Assembly: GCF_007018905.1 (NCBI RefSeq)
Contig: NZ_CP041402.1
Span: 5,382,001-5,446,000, forward strand
DNA length: 64,000 bases
Source: Tardiphaga sp. vice304
GTDB lineage: Bacteria > Pseudomonadota > Alphaproteobacteria > Rhizobiales > Xanthobacteraceae
Direction of reading: 5' to 3'
Translations under genes and position numbers: made by a program
Notes under the pieces: model-generated
What the model was told of the DNA's origin: nothing
Databases searched by the model: none
The model's input: the letters and a program-made list of their open reading frames with translations, nothing else
Shown here: piece by piece, positions 1,902-35,233 of the stretch
Layout of the letters: each line of letters starts with the position of its first letter
Position numbering within the stretch: position 1 is the stretch's first letter

Positions 1902-2255
1902 CAAAGCATGGATCTGCGCGTAGCGGAGAATGCAACTGAGGATTCCGGTACGACGGCTGGCAATGCGATCTGCTAGCGCCGGCGTTTCTCCAGCTCCTCC
2001 ACGGCGTCCAGCGCCGCGTGCATCATGGCGTCCTGCGTACAGTCGCTCGCGCGCACATGCGCGATAATGCTGGTAGCAATGAACGCGCTGGTCGCGTGCG
2101 TACGCAGATCCGTTGGCAGACCGCCGTACGCATGATCGAAGCTCTCGCTGAGAAGCTGATCGTCGCCGCCGATATCCGGCGTTTCTTCCGATTGACCTGA
2201 GCCCCTGAACTTCCGCCAAAAATGGGTAGAATCCGTCACCTGAAGGGAGACGGAG

Positions 2256-2519
2256 ATGAAGCAGTCGAGGTTCACGGAAGAGCGGATCATCGCGATCCTG
2301 CGGGAGCACGAGGCAGGCTCAAAGACCGGGGACGTTTGTCGCAAGCACGGGATCAGCAGCGCGACGTTCTACAAATGGAAGGCGAAGTATGGTGGGCTCG
2401 ATGTGTCGGAGGCCCGCCGCCTGAAGGTTCTGACCGACGAGAATGCCAAGCTAAAAAAGCTGCTGGCCGAAGCGATGCTCGACAACGCCATGTTGAAGGA
2501 TCTCAATTCAAAAAAATGA
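2256..2519 (+). CDS. IS407-group transposase OrfA
   Basis: An 87-residue protein with an N-terminal helix-turn-helix (RITEERI-like start, then [20 protein letters not shown]) and a leucine-zipper-like tail, typical of IS3-family OrfA, which binds the element ends. ATG follows a GGGAGACGGAG ribosome site. The stop codon lies just after a run of seven A residues (2508-2514), a classical -1 slippery site, so ribosomes can continue into orfB to make the OrfAB transposase. Confidence 0.92.
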   Translation: MKQSRFTEERIIAILREHEAGSKTGDVCRKHGISSATFYKWKAKYGGLDVSEARRLKVLTDENAKLKKLLAEAMLDNAMLKDLNSKK

Positions 2520-3451
2520 TGACGCCCGTCGCGAAGCGACAAGCTGTGGCTCACCTTTGTTCAAGTTTTGAGGTCAGCCAGCGGCGGGCGTGTGCGGTCA
2601 TCGGAGCGGATCGAACCTCGGTACGCTATCGCAGCGTGCGGCCCGACGATGTTGTCATTCGCGCGAGGTTGCGCGAACTGGCCAATATCAGACGGCGGTT
2701 TGGCTACCGTCGCCTGCTCCTACTGTTGCGCATCGATGGCGTTTCGATCAATCACAAGAAGCTGCGGCGTCTGTACGCCGAGGAGCGGCTTCAGGTTCGA
2801 CGGCGTGGTGGTCGCAAGAAAGCGCTGGGAACAAGGGCTCCGATGACGTTGCCCCAAGGTCCCAACCATCGCTGGTCGCTCGACTTTGTCAGCGACACGC
2901 TGACCGACAGCCGGCGCTTCCGCATGCTGGCCGTGGTGGACGACTTCACCCGCGAGTGCATCGCATTGGTTGCCGATACGTCGCTCTCGGGCACAAGGGT
3001 CGGCCGAGAGCTCGATGCGGTGATCGCCCGGCGTGGTCCCCCGCTAACGATCGTCAGCGATAACGGTACCGAATTTACCAGCATGGCCATCTTGCGATGG
3101 TCACAGCAGACCAGGATCGAATGGCACTACATCGCACCAGGCAAGCCGCAGCAGAACGCATTCGTAGAAAGCTTCAATGGGCGCCTGCGCGACGAACTCC
3201 TGAACGAGACGTTGTTCTCGTCCCTCAACCATGCCCGCGAAGTCCTTGCTGAATGGCAGGACGACTACAACACCGTCCGCCCTCACAGCGCGATCGGCAA
3301 TCTTCCACCGGCTACCTATGCCAAGCTCCACGCGTCCGACATGCAACGGGACGGACCGCATGAGCTGATTTGGGGCTCCGCGCCCCGTCCCGTTGCATCA
3401 CCGAGCCACACAGGCTCAAATGATCAAAGGATTCTTCCCATCGCTGGATGA
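2516..3451 (+). CDS. IS407-group transposase OrfB (DDE integrase domain)
   Basis: OrfB overlaps orfA by 4 nt in the -1 frame and can be expressed as an OrfAB fusion by slippage on A7. The rve/DDE core shows the three acidic residues in [19 protein letters not shown] and [13 protein letters not shown]. The C-terminal end reads [18 protein letters not shown] and stops inside the element. That ending is the usual one for this group as I recall it, so this copy is probably the functional version and the inverted copy the mutated one. Confidence 0.9.
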   Translation: MMTPVAKRQAVAHLCSSFEVSQRRACAVIGADRTSVRYRSVRPDDVVIRARLRELANIRRRFGYRRLLLLLRIDGVSINHKKLRRLYAEERLQVRRRGGRKKALGTRAPMTLPQGPNHRWSLDFVSDTLTDSRRFRMLAVVDDFTRECIALVADTSLSGTRVGRELDAVIARRGPPLTIVSDNGTEFTSMAILRWSQQTRIEWHYIAPGKPQQNAFVESFNGRLRDELLNETLFSSLNHAREVLAEWQDDYNTVRPHSAIGNLPPATYAKLHASDMQRDGPHELIWGSAPRPVASPSHTGSNDQRILPIAG

Positions 3452-3711
3452 AGCTTGGGGCTCAGGTCACGATACCAAGCTCATGGTTGGTATCTTCCTT
3501 CATCCCGACAACGCAGCGTTCTTTCGGCGCCGTAAAAGTCGATCATGCCCTTTGTTCCAATCGCACGGCATCTCAAATGAGGCGCCATTGTGGATTCGGA
3601 ACTCATCGGCAGTTGCTGACTGTTGCAGAGTGGAGACAGTAATCCATGCGCAATCGTCTAGGTTCGCGTCAGATGCAGCCATCCACCGGGGATGGCCTCA
3701 AGGAACCCACA

Positions 3712-27712: not shown

Positions 27713-28852
<1,140 letters not shown>

Positions 28853-30476: not shown

Positions 30477-30582
30477 TGCGTTCAGATCCGTCAAGACAAT
30501 TGCAATATACCTTAGCGAGAAGCTATCAGAGATTGCGCCCTTGTAGTTGACAAAGGCTTGAGTGATTTAGACGGGAGGATAC

Positions 30583-30789
30583 GTGCTCGATTTTATCGTG
30601 AATCACCTTAGCCAGATCGGCAGTTTCGTCGGCGGCATATGCGCTGGCGCGGTTGGTGGATCTCTAGTCACATTCAAAGTCTCCCGAAAAAATCAGGCAG
30701 ATGGATCGAGTTCCATTACGGACCAAACCGGAGCGCACGCTGGTGGGGATCTCGTAGGACGAGATAAGTCTACAATTCTTAAGCGGTAG
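30583..30789 (+). CDS. Small single-TM protein with GGDLVGRD motif, possible extra ABC-3C component
   Basis: A 68-residue protein starting at GTG with GGGAGG four nt upstream. Residues about 8-31 form one membrane helix (IGSFVGGICAGAVGGSLVTF), followed by a basic patch and a soluble tail with AHAGGDLVGRDKS. The next gene, 7 nt downstream, starts with the related AKGHIAGRDINS, so the two proteins share a motif and probably a complex. I know no named family for it. Low GC and tight spacing put it in the same operon as the ABC-3C genes. A membrane effector or anchor role is inference. Confidence 0.65.
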   Translation: MLDFIVNHLSQIGSFVGGICAGAVGGSLVTFKVSRKNQADGSSSITDQTGAHAGGDLVGRDKSTILKR

Positions 30790-31259
30790 AGCGCTCATGA
30801 CGGGCGAAACGACTTCGGTGAGCGTCATTCAATCCAACGCGAGCGCGAAGGGACATATAGCAGGTCGCGACATAAACTCGACGATCATCAACAATGCCCC
30901 CCCGCGAGCGGCTGGCATAGTCGAGCAACTGCTTGAAAAGCTGGACGCGGAACTGCAGGGCGATCAGAAAACTCAGAATACGATCCATAAATTGCAGCGC
31001 TATTACTCCAACAAAGCTCACGACGGAATTAATGGCCTTGAAGCCAAACTTATACACGTTGGAAGAGAGACGGCATACGCCGACGCGATAGAGATGAAAG
31101 AAATGTTCGCGAAACTCCTTGAGCAATGGTCCTTGTATGCTTCCGCTCAGCAGATCTTTGTCTATCTGCTCGCAAGAGCCGAGCGCCATTTTAATGATCT
31201 CATTCTACCTCAAATCGCATCACTCGACGAAGCTGGCGTCAATAAAATGGTCAATGAAC

Positions 31260-32222
31260 TTATTGTCGATGACCTGAGCCCCAAGCTTCATCCAGCGATG
31301 GGAAGAATCCTTTGATCATTTGAGCCTGTGTGGCTCGGTGATGCAACGGGACGGGGCGCGAGCCCCAAATCAGCTCATGCGGTCCGTCCCGTTGCATGTC
31401 GGACGCGTGGAGCTTGGCATAGGTAGCCGGTGGAAGATTGCCGATCGCGCTGTGAGGGCGGACGGTGTTGTAGTCGTCCTGCCATTCAGCAAGGACTTCG
31501 CGGGCATGGTTGAGGGACGAGAACAACGTCTCGTTCAGGAGTTCGTCGCGCAGGCGCCCATTGAAGCTTTCTACGAATGCGTTCTGCTGCGGCTTGCCTG
31601 GTGCGATGTAGTGCCATTCGATCCTGGTCTGCTGTGACCATCGCAAGATGGCCATGCTGGTAAATTCGGTACCGTTATCGCTGACGATCGTTAGCGGGGG
31701 ACCACGCCGGGCGATCACCGCATCGAGCTCTCGGCCGACCCTTGTGCCCGAGAGCGACGTATCGGCAACCAATGCGATGCACTCGCGGGTGAAGTCGTCC
31801 ACCACGGCCAGCATGCGGAAGCGCCGGCTGTCGGTCAGCGTGTCGCTGACAAAGTCGAGCGACCAGCGATGGTTGGGACCTTGGGGCAACGTCATCGGAG
31901 CCCTTGTTCCCAGCGCTTTCTTGCGACCACCACGCCGTCGAACCTGAAGCCGCTCCTCGGCGTACAGACGCCGCAGCTTCTTGTGATTGATCGAAACGCC
32001 ATCGATGCGCAACAGTAGGAGCAGGCGACGGTAGCCAAACCGCCGTCTGATATTGGCCAGTTCGCGCAACCTCGCGCGAATGACAACATCGTCGGGCCGC
32101 ACGCTGCGATAGCGTACCGAGGTTCGATCCGCTCCGATGACCGCACACGCCCGCCGCTGGCTGACCTCAAAACTTGAACAAAGGTGAGCCACAGCTTGTC
32201 GCTTCGCGACGGGCGTCATCAT
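31260..32222 (-). CDS. IS407-group transposase OrfB, copy 2, altered C-terminus
   Basis: Identical to the copy at 2516 through the DDE domain ([18 protein letters not shown]). Because one C is missing near the 3' end, the frame changes after HELIWGS, runs through the right inverted repeat and stops at a TAA in host DNA (31260-31262). The catalytic core is complete, so the protein may still act, but the tail is not the usual one. Confidence 0.85.
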
Positions 32223-32545
32223 TTTTTTGAATTGAGATCCTTCAACATGGCGTTGTCGAGCATCGCTTCGGCCAGCAGCTTTTTTAGCTTGGCATTCTCG
32301 TCGGTCAGAACCTTCAGGCGGCGGGCCTCCGACACATCGAGCCCACCATACTTCGCCTTCCATTTGTAGAACGTCGCGCTGCTGATCCCGTGCTTGCGAC
32401 AAACGTCCCCGGTCTTTGAGCCTGCCTCGTGCTCCCGCAGGATCGCGATGATCCGCTCTTCCGTGAACCTCGACTGCTTCATCTCCGTCTCCCTTCAGGT
32501 GACGGATTCTACCCATTTTTGGCGGAAGTTCAGGGGCTCAGGTCA
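31270..32545 (-). mobile_element. IS3-family (IS407 group) insertion sequence, copy 2
   Basis: A 1276-bp element, inverted relative to the copy at 2193-3469, with the same TGACCTGAGCCCC ends. The 4-bp target duplication TCGA is at 31266-31269 and 32546-32549. It separates the first ABC-3C gene from the other two and is transcribed against them. Confidence 0.93.
32219..32482 (-). CDS. IS407-group transposase OrfA, copy 2
   Basis: The 87-residue protein is the same as in copy 1, with the helix-turn-helix [15 protein letters not shown] and the A7 slippery site before the stop, so OrfAB can be made by -1 slippage. Confidence 0.92.
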
Positions 32546-32654
32546 TCGAGCCGACCGTGAGTGAGTGCGGCGCAAGCGTATTTGAAATCGATCACAATAC
32601 AGCATTAGGGATGGTCTATTGGTTGGCCGAACAGTGTTTCGTACGGTGGCACAG

Positions 32655-33176
32655 GTGAACCAACTAGTCTTCCAACCAGCGCTTGACCCGCTACACGCAG
32701 CTTTTCGCATCCTACGCCTACGCTCCATCTTATCGGAGTCTCCCCCGCTACACGTAGAACATGTTCGCATACTTGATTTTTTCCTTCTGTTCCCTTTCAG
32801 AATACGATCATTGCGACTTGCACCCTCGCATCAGCATTACAAAGCACTTGCAGAAAAATATGCACACCTAGCCCCCTACGGCGAACAGCCCGACTCCGAA
32901 CTGCTCTTTGAGAGAATGAAGCCCATGCAAATTGCCGCCTTAGAAACGCTAGCGCTAAGAGGATACATCGATGAAGGTAGTTTTAAAGCAGGAATTTTTA
33001 AACCAACTCAGAACGAGATTCCAATTGAACTCGCCGACAGAATATCGCGCATCAATTACGAGCAATCTGACCTAGTCGATTTTTTAAGGATCCTCGCAAC
33101 AGGCTACGATGTTTCAGGCGAGAACGGGCTGAAAGCCCGCAGTCAATTGATGGATTCTCGATATGACGCGATTTGA
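32655..33176 (+). CDS. ABC-3C system middle component
   Basis: A 173-residue protein. The start LVFQPALDPLHAAFRILRLR and the following VRILDFFLLFPFRIRSLRL match the winged-helix-like middle component (MC) of ABC three-component systems, which is thought to link the ATPase to the C-terminal-domain partner. I chose GTG at 32655 because it overlaps the original upstream stop as GTGA. An in-frame TTG at 32619 is open but would lie inside the upstream gene. It overlaps the ATPase gene by 14 nt. After the IS insertion it has lost its coupled upstream reading frame. Confidence 0.72.
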   Translation: MNQLVFQPALDPLHAAFRILRLRSILSESPPLHVEHVRILDFFLLFPFRIRSLRLAPSHQHYKALAEKYAHLAPYGEQPDSELLFERMKPMQIAALETLALRGYIDEGSFKAGIFKPTQNEIPIELADRISRINYEQSDLVDFLRILATGYDVSGENGLKARSQLMDSRYDAI

Positions 33177-35079
33177 ACCTACGCTGATAGTGAAGCGGTT
33201 GGTCGTAGAGCGACGCGAGGCGGTAGTTTACGACGAGCGTTTTCATGCAGGTGTCAACGTTGTTCGCGGAGAGAACTCCTCTGGAAAGTCCACAGTTCTA
33301 AACTTCATCTTCTATGGATTAGGTGGCGACCTCTCTGATTGGAGTGCCGTAGCTCGCCTGTGCTCAAGGGTAATTGTGGAGGTCAGCCTAAACGGACTTA
33401 GCGCGACGCTTAGCCGAGAGATATCTGAAACTAGCGGTTTGCAACCAATGGATATCTTTGGTGGAGCTTACGACGACGCCAAGAGCGCGCCTCGCAGTGA
33501 ATGGTTGCGCTTTCCCTATAAAGGCGGCGCAAGCCGCGAGAGCTTTTCTCAAGCGTTGTTTAAGCTAATGGGCGTTCCGGAAGTATCAAGCGATCTTTCA
33601 GGCCACATAACAATGAATCAGATCCTGCGTCTGCTCTACGCGGACCAACTCAGCCCGGTCGAACAGATTTTTCGGGTAATGCCATTCGATAGAGCCGATT
33701 TACGAGATACAGTCGGCCGCCTGCTCTGCGGGGCCTACGACTCCACCGTTTATGACAACGAACAAAGGGTGCGGGAACTCGACAAGGAATTTGATACCGT
33801 AAACGGACAATTGAGAAGCCTGTTTTCGGTGCTGGGAAAAGCAGATCAAGGATTTACTTATGATTGGATCGACGCTCAGCGAAGCGTCCTCGAACGAGAA
33901 CGCGTTGAAATTGGCAACGCCATCCAAATCGCCGAGAGGGCTTTTTATACGTTAGAAAAGAAGGATAAGCTTACGCTTGTCCAGCAAGAAAAATCCTACA
34001 AAGAAGTTCAAAGAATTCAAGCTAGTTTGCTCAAGGCTAAACATGATCGAGACGCATTAGCCCTCGCCATAGCCGACTCTGCTGGCTTTTTAAGAGCGCT
34101 GAACAACAAATTAGAGGCGCTACAAGACTCTTCGACGGTCGCACAACATATTGGAGCGGTTCGATTTGAGTCTTGCCCATCGTGTTATGCCGTCTTGGAT
34201 CTAGAAACTCCTCATGCTTGCCATCTCTGCAAGACGCCATTTGATTCAGAGCAGACAAAGGGACGCATTGCGGGACTTATATTGACAACCGGGCTTCAAA
34301 TTCGACAATCAGAAATGTTACAGGCACGTCGGGAAGAAAAATATACTATTTTAGAATCTCAAATTCGAGCGATGGAGTCTTCCTGGAAAGAAGCCTCTCG
34401 GCGGCTCGCTAGCATACAATCGCTTCCCTCAAGCACTGAGCGAGAGCGACTGCGAGAGCTTCATCGCAGATCGGGATATCTGCAGCGGCAAGCTGAAGAT
34501 ATTGAGCAGAAGGCGCAACTGGCCGAGACAATTCGCGCATTGTCCGATCGTAAGAATGCGCTTCAAAGTGAAATATACAAGCTGAAGTCTGACAATGAAG
34601 GTCTGCGCGCTCAACAAGAAGCCCGAATGGCGGCTGCATACACAAGCATAAGCACTGAAATTAAGAAGCTCTTGATTCTCGATCTCCGCCGCCAAGATAT
34701 CTTCGAAGACCCTCAAAGTGTCAGCTTTACATTCTCGGACAATAAAATCACGGTGGACGACGAAAATTACTTTTCCGCTAGTTCGCGAGCAATCCTAAGG
34801 AGCAGCTTCTTTCTGGGTTTCTTTGCAGCGGCAACAAAGAATCCTTTTTTTCGACACCCACGCTTTTGTATGATCGACTCTCACGAAAACATGGGGGTCG
34901 AGGCCATACGAAGTCAGAATTTTCAACTTCAGATGCTTCGTATATCCCGAGAGAGCAAGGTCGAACATCAGATTATTTATGCAACAGCAATGATTGAGCC
35001 TGAGTTAGAAGATGATAGTTATACTGTCGGCGCGTTTTCGACGAGCGACGATAAAACGGTCGGCATCAAAATGGTCTAG
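33163..35079 (+). CDS. ABC-3C system Rad50/SMC-like ATPase
   Basis: A 638-residue ATPase with Walker A GENSSGKST at residues 36-44, a long coiled coil, a central CPSC...CHLC pair (Cys338, 341, 353, 356) resembling a zinc hook, a signature-like SASSRAILRSSFF near 538-550, and Walker B FCMIDSHEN with Asp572. This order is that of Rad50-like SMC ATPases used in ABC three-component conflict systems. It appears intact. Codon use is AT-richer than in rpmB or the c-di-GMP genes. It is the last gene of the island. Nucleic-acid sensing is the family's proposed role; not shown here. Confidence 0.8.
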   Translation: MTRFEPTLIVKRLVVERREAVVYDERFHAGVNVVRGENSSGKSTVLNFIFYGLGGDLSDWSAVARLCSRVIVEVSLNGLSATLSREISETSGLQPMDIFGGAYDDAKSAPRSEWLRFPYKGGASRESFSQALFKLMGVPEVSSDLSGHITMNQILRLLYADQLSPVEQIFRVMPFDRADLRDTVGRLLCGAYDSTVYDNEQRVRELDKEFDTVNGQLRSLFSVLGKADQGFTYDWIDAQRSVLERERVEIGNAIQIAERAFYTLEKKDKLTLVQQEKSYKEVQRIQASLLKAKHDRDALALAIADSAGFLRALNNKLEALQDSSTVAQHIGAVRFESCPSCYAVLDLETPHACHLCKTPFDSEQTKGRIAGLILTTGLQIRQSEMLQARREEKYTILESQIRAMESSWKEASRRLASIQSLPSSTERERLRELHRRSGYLQRQAEDIEQKAQLAETIRALSDRKNALQSEIYKLKSDNEGLRAQQEARMAAAYTSISTEIKKLLILDLRRQDIFEDPQSVSFTFSDNKITVDDENYFSASSRAILRSSFFLGFFAAATKNPFFRHPRFCMIDSHENMGVEAIRSQNFQLQMLRISRESKVEHQIIYATAMIEPELEDDSYTVGAFSTSDDKTVGIKMV

Positions 35080-35233
35080 CAAATAACTCCGCTTAAAACG
35101 GAAAGCCATTTGCGGCGAGCATTTCGGTATGGCACACCACAACATCGCCCCATTTCGTTCGGGAACACGCCGCCGCCCGCGCGGTTCTTCTTTTGGTGCG
35201 CTGCGAAGCGCAAGATCAATCGAGGAGTTTCCG

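Follow-up and report, generated by a model that had tools for sequence, protein, structure and literature searches.

Four closely spaced genes lie at positions 30583-35079 of a 64,000-nucleotide stretch of the Tardiphaga sp. vice304 genome (the window, part of one 5.79-Mb contig), with rpmB on one side and a PepSY gene on the other. All four are on the plus strand. The first gene (30583-30789, GTG start) encodes a front peptide of 68 residues, recognised by one hydrophobic segment in hydropathy analysis and by a peptide profile. It is followed after 7 nucleotides by a gene for an LmuA-like protein ending in the C-terminal domain (CTD) CTD9, which is split by an insertion sequence (IS) into a left piece (30797-31269) and a right piece (32546-32655). 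The stop codon of the latter shares the letters GTGA (32652-32655) with the start of the gene for an LmuC-like middle component 5 (MC5; 32652-33176), and this gene overlaps by 14 nucleotides (33163-33176) with that of a 638-residue Rad50/SMC-like, LmuB-like ATPase (33163-35079). A reading of the locus from its sequence only had described the same tight packing, and we located the gap and both overlaps. Among relatives of this operon, the tail of the front peptide and the N-terminus of the CTD9 protein appear to carry a motif that is matched locus by locus.

The identity of the larger genes was evaluated with profile searches. The left CTD9 piece alone matched PF20285 (E = 1.6e-16), MC5 matched PF20291 (E = 2.2e-41; the query started 57 nucleotides upstream of the GTG), and an MC5-type open reading frame (ORF) came next in all 19 relatives checked. 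The ATPase matched PADLOC LmuB across residues 8-631 (E = 1.2e-39) and AAA_23 just above the cut-off (E = 7.9e-6), and in alignment displays the nucleotide-binding motif GENSSGKST and a CxxC..CxxC hinge. The locus thus holds the CTD-ending protein, middle component and Rad50/SMC-like ABC ATPase that define ABC three-component (ABC-3C) systems, together with an LmuB-like protein, the component described as common to all Lamassu systems (PMC10586767). By its profile matches, the four-gene operon is an ABC-3C (Lamassu-superfamily) system with CTD9, MC5 and an LmuB-like ATPase. This agrees with the sequence-only reading, which had proposed an ABC-3C system: the profiles place its two small proteins exactly in CTD9 and MC5 and not in unrelated families, and relatives of the ATPase co-occur with them in the loci fetched. 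The same reading held the mechanism of such systems to be largely open, which is now less the case, as ABC-3C has been placed within the Lamassu superfamily (PMC10586767) and activation has been described (PMC12409362). Sequence searches against the PDB matched the ATPase to Rad50 heads alone, and they gave no credible match to CTD9 or MC5. From family and neighbourhood we infer a defence role for the operon.

Setting of the operon and state of the window copy

The operon lies in an AT-rich island (30483-35136) between rpmB and the PepSY gene. With the IS removed, island GC content is 48.8%, whereas 211 equally long sliding windows from the rest of the 64 kb all reach at least 60.5% (mean 64.4%), as the earlier impression of an AT-richer segment implied. 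A query from the rpmB region found matches in 16 of 17 further genomes from the genus. Because homology in these 16 loci ends by window position 30490 (in one of them at a contig end within rpmB), and because in two of them, representing the empty site, the PepSY gene follows approximately 0.5-0.6 kb after rpmB, the island is an insertion between these two genes. A search for CTD9 in these 17 genomes gave no match, no flanking repeats of at least 12 bases were present within the segment examined at each island end, and promoter and terminator scans of the locus did not score above shuffled sequence. A gene for an IS110-family transposase (27743-28852) lies approximately 1.7 kb ahead of the island.

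The IS inside the CTD9 gene is of the IS3 type, lies on the minus strand and comprises 1276 bp (31270-32545). It is flanked on both sides by TCGA, the first 13 bases of its termini are identical in inverted orientation, and its protein domains are HTH_Tnp_1 and an rve transposase. Six full-length copies of approximately 100% identity occur in the genome, and a second copy is seen in the window at 2193-3469. The CTD9 profile is accordingly matched in two pieces, at profile positions 1-88 and 77-113. Because the IS interrupts the CTD9 gene, the window copy of the operon is probably inactive, and the system must therefore be understood through its relatives. Decayed copies look frequent among these as well: in L012 (L-numbers denote loci) the peptide is frameshifted and transposon genes replace MC5 and the ATPase, and in L015 and L078 CTD9 is split. 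Such frequent decay might be a sign that the system is costly to carry.

A motif shared by the front peptide and the CTD9 protein

Relatives were collected by CTD9 profile scans, each including the genome of the window itself, with matches in 11 of 391 genomes of the family, 5 of 397 of the order and 4 of 385 of the class, and matches over the cut-off in 5 of 299 genomes of the phylum. Further loci came from a scan of genome contigs with the ATPase (three loci), from plasmids and from viral contigs. The latter were gathered after the hypothesis had been formed and gave 18 distinct contigs, comprising 16 with a short CTD9 protein and a readable start, one with a fused hydrolase and one cut at the contig end. 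Annotated phage records yielded no CTD9 match, although viral contigs yielded many. Near-duplicates were dropped (L012 of L013, L021 of L008, L023 of L010, L096 of L094, L107 of L024), as were a contig that begins within CTD9 (L087/L090/L100) and the plasmid matches H21, H24 and H25; L044, below the CTD9 cut-off and within a 1691-residue ORF containing a stop, was rejected as a chance match. The final set held 37 short-CTD9 loci with a readable upstream side and seven CTD9-hydrolase loci.

A small hydrophobic gene encoding a membrane peptide of approximately 64 residues precedes CTD9 in 36 of the 37 short-CTD9 loci, and in all 16 viral contigs that have a short CTD9 with a readable start; in L003 only the peptide tail is present on the contig. 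The sequence-only reading was thus right about an unusual membrane peptide at the front of the operon, yet understated it, as the peptide is a regular component of short-CTD9 loci and has a motif cognate to that of CTD9. Hydropathy was evaluated for 35 peptides (median 64 residues, with starts set by rule of thumb); those of L010, L022 and L027 did not clear the initial hydropathy filter and were identified by direct reading. No family in Pfam, PADLOC, NCBIfam or PHROG matched the window peptide. In two relatives a helix-turn-helix regulator-like reading stands directly upstream of the operon (L010:4289-4531) or ahead of the peptide (L043), and on an Allorhizobium plasmid an annotated DarT-family gene (L013:7726-8235) lies downstream of the operon, which fits a defence neighbourhood.

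The motif in the C-terminal tail of the peptide recurs at the N-terminus of the CTD9 protein from the same locus, most commonly in the form DQSGxxAGGDIVGRDK. In the window, the peptide has the C-terminal motif SITDQTGAHAGGDLVGRDKSTI and the CTD9 protein the N-terminal motif SVIQSNASAKGHIAGRDINST, followed by the helical CTD9 domain. Variants of the motif are found on both partners (given as peptide/CTD9): GHMSGRDVNV/GHMGGRDVNV (L003, L026), AGRDNIGG/AGRDNAAG (L004, L028), GDQAGRD/GDQAGRD (L016), DIVGGNK/DIVGGNK (L005), NGDYTGRDK/NGDYVGRDK (L088), GSIVGRDQ/GSIVARDQ (L095), NTAAGDIAGGDI/NTAKGDIAGGDI (L084) and, with very different letters, GSVRAGNDTN/GGVRVGDDTN (L042). The upstream peptide of L084 (732-1010) has a tail with two motif-like copies, NISGGSIAGGSIIKN and NTAAGDIAGGDIKK, like some repeated amyloid signalling motifs. 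The front peptides of L042 and L098 are longer and more hydrophobic, possibly with two membrane helices, and their motif is of another type that still matches their CTD9. A profile built from 12 peptides retrieved, unaided, CTD9 N-termini in three genomes (E = 3.7e-5, 6.0e-5 and 0.009). When 238 genomes were scanned with the peptide profile, scoring 25 candidates per genome so that misses are possible, all five strong matches (E up to 7e-11) lay directly upstream of CTD9, which argues against a free-standing peptide module; weak matches (L034-L038; E = 5.7e-4 to 0.0098) were rejected as chance hits in housekeeping contexts.

Next we compared the two motifs within and between loci. Over the 16-residue cores, in 19 loci, two motifs of one locus had on average 10.2 identities and motifs of different loci 7.3, a difference reached in none of 200,000 permutations, and position 13 (R or G in G[RG][DN]K) was identical in 19 of 19 pairs versus 51% between loci. 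For L042 the register was set by hand in one comparison; the following score tests were register-free. Best ungapped scores averaged 62.1 within and 38.6 between loci in 21 loci (0/200,000 permutations), 61.1 and 32.3 in the 15 non-duplicate loci of the out-of-sample viral-contig set (0/200,000), and 61.7 and 35.7 in all 36 loci (0/100,000). The seven motif classes had been set after the motifs were seen; cluster tests used the CTD9 body sequence instead, and with one locus for each of 13 CTD9 clusters no permutation out of 10,000 reached the observed value in any of 30 draws. As a control, the protein bodies outside the motif (34 of the 36 loci) showed no matching (15.0 versus 15.2). The L042 pair scored 59, whereas none of 5,000 residue shuffles scored above 42. 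Codons were compared at 367 identical residues and agreed in 143 (0.39), under the 0.47 expected from codon usage. The match therefore appears to be kept at the protein level, and gene conversion or DNA copying of the motif was rejected, as the codons do not match. Together, these data lend good support, at the level of sequence, to a locus-specific pairing of peptide and CTD9 motifs, and it is very likely that the two proteins are coupled through the motif. A plain ABC-3C system with an incidental front peptide is ruled out by co-occurrence and motif matching.

A version of the operon is also present in 23 of 5,426 E. coli genomes, with 19 of the 23 at least 99% identical to one copy. Two regions were read, and in both a complete four-gene version (L112:2767-5951, from the water isolate E. 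coli AGR6137, and L113:5050-8234) forms part of a P2-like prophage and is flanked by the replication endonuclease and portal genes, a site (gpA-portal) at which anti-phage systems are described as clustering in a hotspot (PMC9122126). The E. coli motif pair is TVTQTGNSVTNGSIVGGNQ/VSIEQSGNTVTNGNIISGDQ; its peptide is annotated as a hypothetical protein and the neighbours as ABC-three component proteins. The operon was not found by name in the passages searched on the P2 hotspot (PMC9122126), the supplementary tables being outside the search.

Fused enzymes, a candidate relay and its rivals

LmuA is described as usually carrying an N-terminal enzyme, such as a nuclease, protease, hydrolase, TIR or SIR2 domain (PMC10586767). 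In short CTD9 proteins only approximately 30-75 residues precede the CTD9 domain, and Pfam detected no enzyme domain ahead of it in the protein of the window or of L012. The CTD9 N-terminus of L008 is disordered, with the motif region at low confidence in the AlphaFold monomer model. A natural control is provided by seven distinct loci in which CTD9 stands behind an alpha/beta-hydrolase (L017, L019, L024, L077, L078, L079, L080). DUF676 was above the cut-off in L017, L024, L079 and L080 and just below it in L019, while the hydrolase call in L077 and L078 is a reading of VHGLxG only, L078 being annotated as two overlapping genes. These systems share the CTD9 domain, with MC5 and ATPase annotated alongside in L017, L078, L079 and L080, but their effector enzyme is covalently fused, and neither the N-terminal motif nor a motif-bearing upstream peptide was seen in any of the seven. 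A hydrophobic upstream reading was found in L077, without the motif, and another in L107, the viral-contig duplicate of L024. Since motif and motif-bearing peptide are missing from the fused-hydrolase loci, the peptide-plus-motif arrangement appears to occupy the place of the fused enzyme, and the membrane peptide is likely to be the effector.

These observations can be combined into a proposed mechanism. LmuB and the middle component would sense abnormal DNA and release the CTD9 protein, and CTD9 domains would then oligomerise, as published work on Lamassu suggests: Lamassu is described as sensing DNA structures or ends (PMC12904381), and LmuA as being liberated to form a homotetramer that activates its effector (PMC12409362). 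Two solved entries among our top structure matches are titled LmuA tetramers. The oligomer would bring several disordered N-terminal motifs side by side, where they might nucleate a homotypic, in-register, amyloid-like beta stack; this stack would template the same motif where it occurs in the membrane-peptide tails and gather these peptides, which could then break the membrane so that the cell is sacrificed. In-register beta stacking predicts that equivalent positions are alike rather than complementary. Overall, we lean towards a Lamassu-superfamily defence operon in which a separate membrane peptide does the killing and a shared motif couples it to the sensor through amyloid-like stacking, and we likewise somewhat favour an amyloid-like basis for the coupling itself. 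The broader picture stands at about even: a prion-like relay in Rad50/SMC-type defence, in which a CTD9 oligomer nucleates and membrane peptides of approximately 64 residues are the templated killers, would extend amyloid signalling beyond NLRs and across proteobacterial chromosomes, plasmids and prophages, E. coli P2-like prophages among them, with locus-specific motifs preventing cross-firing between neighbouring systems.

Several observations weigh against this interpretation. The window's own pair is weak, the cognate partner ranking 14th and 13th of 19, and over the 36 loci the own partner came first in only 13 when peptides were ranked against CTD9 proteins and in 16 in the reverse direction, the low counts being due to GDIVGRDK, which is common to many loci. 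Two loci (L081, L092) break the position-13 match seen in all 19 pairs of the first set. L018 is a short CTD9 without recognisable motif or peptide, the sole such locus among the 37; its upstream side shows broken regulator-like readings. Visual inspection of translations was used to pick the peptides and motif stretches, and membrane segments were called from hydropathy alone, with 18-residue means down to 1.29. The predicted CTD9 and MC5 models are nearest to the LmuA C-terminal domain and to LmuC in solved Lamassu entries, but at Foldseek E values of 0.89 and 1.5, respectively, which are not significant, and helical bundles reach such Z by chance; the MC5 model is that of the relative in L008.

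Coupling without stacking would result if both tails bound one groove of MC5/LmuB or another CTD9 surface, the peptide anchoring the complex at the membrane or competing with CTD9 until activation swaps them. One pocket reading both tails would also produce their locus-specific identity, and the motif adjoins the docking domain and shows disorder when modelled as a monomer; such a pocket would however have to track every variant, even GSVRAGNDTN versus GDIVGRDK, and would leave no obvious killing step, so that we consider this explanation unlikely. Slightly less probable still is a finite homotypic pairing, in which a small closed beta assembly (e.g. four CTD9 proteins and a few peptides in a beta-roll) would take the place of open-ended amyloid, leaving the effector logic unchanged. 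It draws on the same sequence evidence, and tetrameric LmuA (PMC12409362) would suit a closed assembly, but most tails lack the motif repeat needed to close a roll (L084 has two copies), and the described analogues with the same gene layout are amyloid (PMC7889193, PMC8086366). That the peptide is a regulator, antitoxin-like or an anchor, while the short CTD9 protein or the ATPase does the damage, is improbable: antitoxins are commonly encoded by a small gene placed ahead of a toxic operon, but the few residues before the CTD9 domain hold no Pfam enzyme domain, and the peptide is absent from precisely those loci that have a fused enzyme, thus behaving as an effector replacement. Tail likeness by low complexity or recent DNA duplication is scarcely credible, for although both tails are short, with a high content of G, D, N and Q, the permutations, body controls, codon comparison and L042 shuffles refute it at the level tested.

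Comparison with known systems

If an amyloid-like relay of this kind exists, it would join DNA-sensing Rad50/SMC-like defence complexes with prion-like death signalling, so far separate fields. It would also represent a clean evolutionary swap, in which one docking domain is combined either with a fused enzyme or with a motif and a membrane peptide, and offer a short motif whose specificity is readable from paired sequences. The small E. coli prophage operon would allow direct tests of templating, tetramer nucleation and membrane killing. No paper joining Lamassu and amyloid was found in the literature searched, which did not extend to the defining 2020 ABC-3C and BASS papers and one Lamassu structure paper, any of which may mention the small gene. 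What is new here is that a small front gene carries a motif matched to CTD9; the effector list published in PMC10586767 is enzymatic. The L093-type peptide, CTD9 and MC5 fall in or next to the families phrog_17975, phrog_13193 and phrog_13252, which carry no assigned function and where the link between the tails is unstated.

Like ABC-3C and Lamassu type II systems (LmuABC, DdmABC), the operon combines a CTD-bearing protein, a middle component and a Rad50/SMC-like ATPase. It differs from them in that LmuA usually has an N-terminal enzyme, while here the CTD9 protein has only a disordered motif and a separate front peptide carries the same motif. In this respect it resembles the BASS/Bell NLR signalosomes and the fungal NLR-HeLo pairs, in which adjacent genes encode a small membrane-directed protein whose C-terminal motif resembles the N-terminal motif of its partner; in the bacterial NLR systems this combination of small membrane protein and adjacent receptor is described as amyloid signalling (PMC7889193, PMC8086366). 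The likeness, drawn from our sequences and from published descriptions of these signalosomes, is one of gene layout and motif placement. Where BASS has an NLR receptor (NACHT/NB-ARC), the operon described here has a predicted Rad50/SMC-like DNA complex, its larger genes being CTD9, MC5 and the LmuB-like ATPase.

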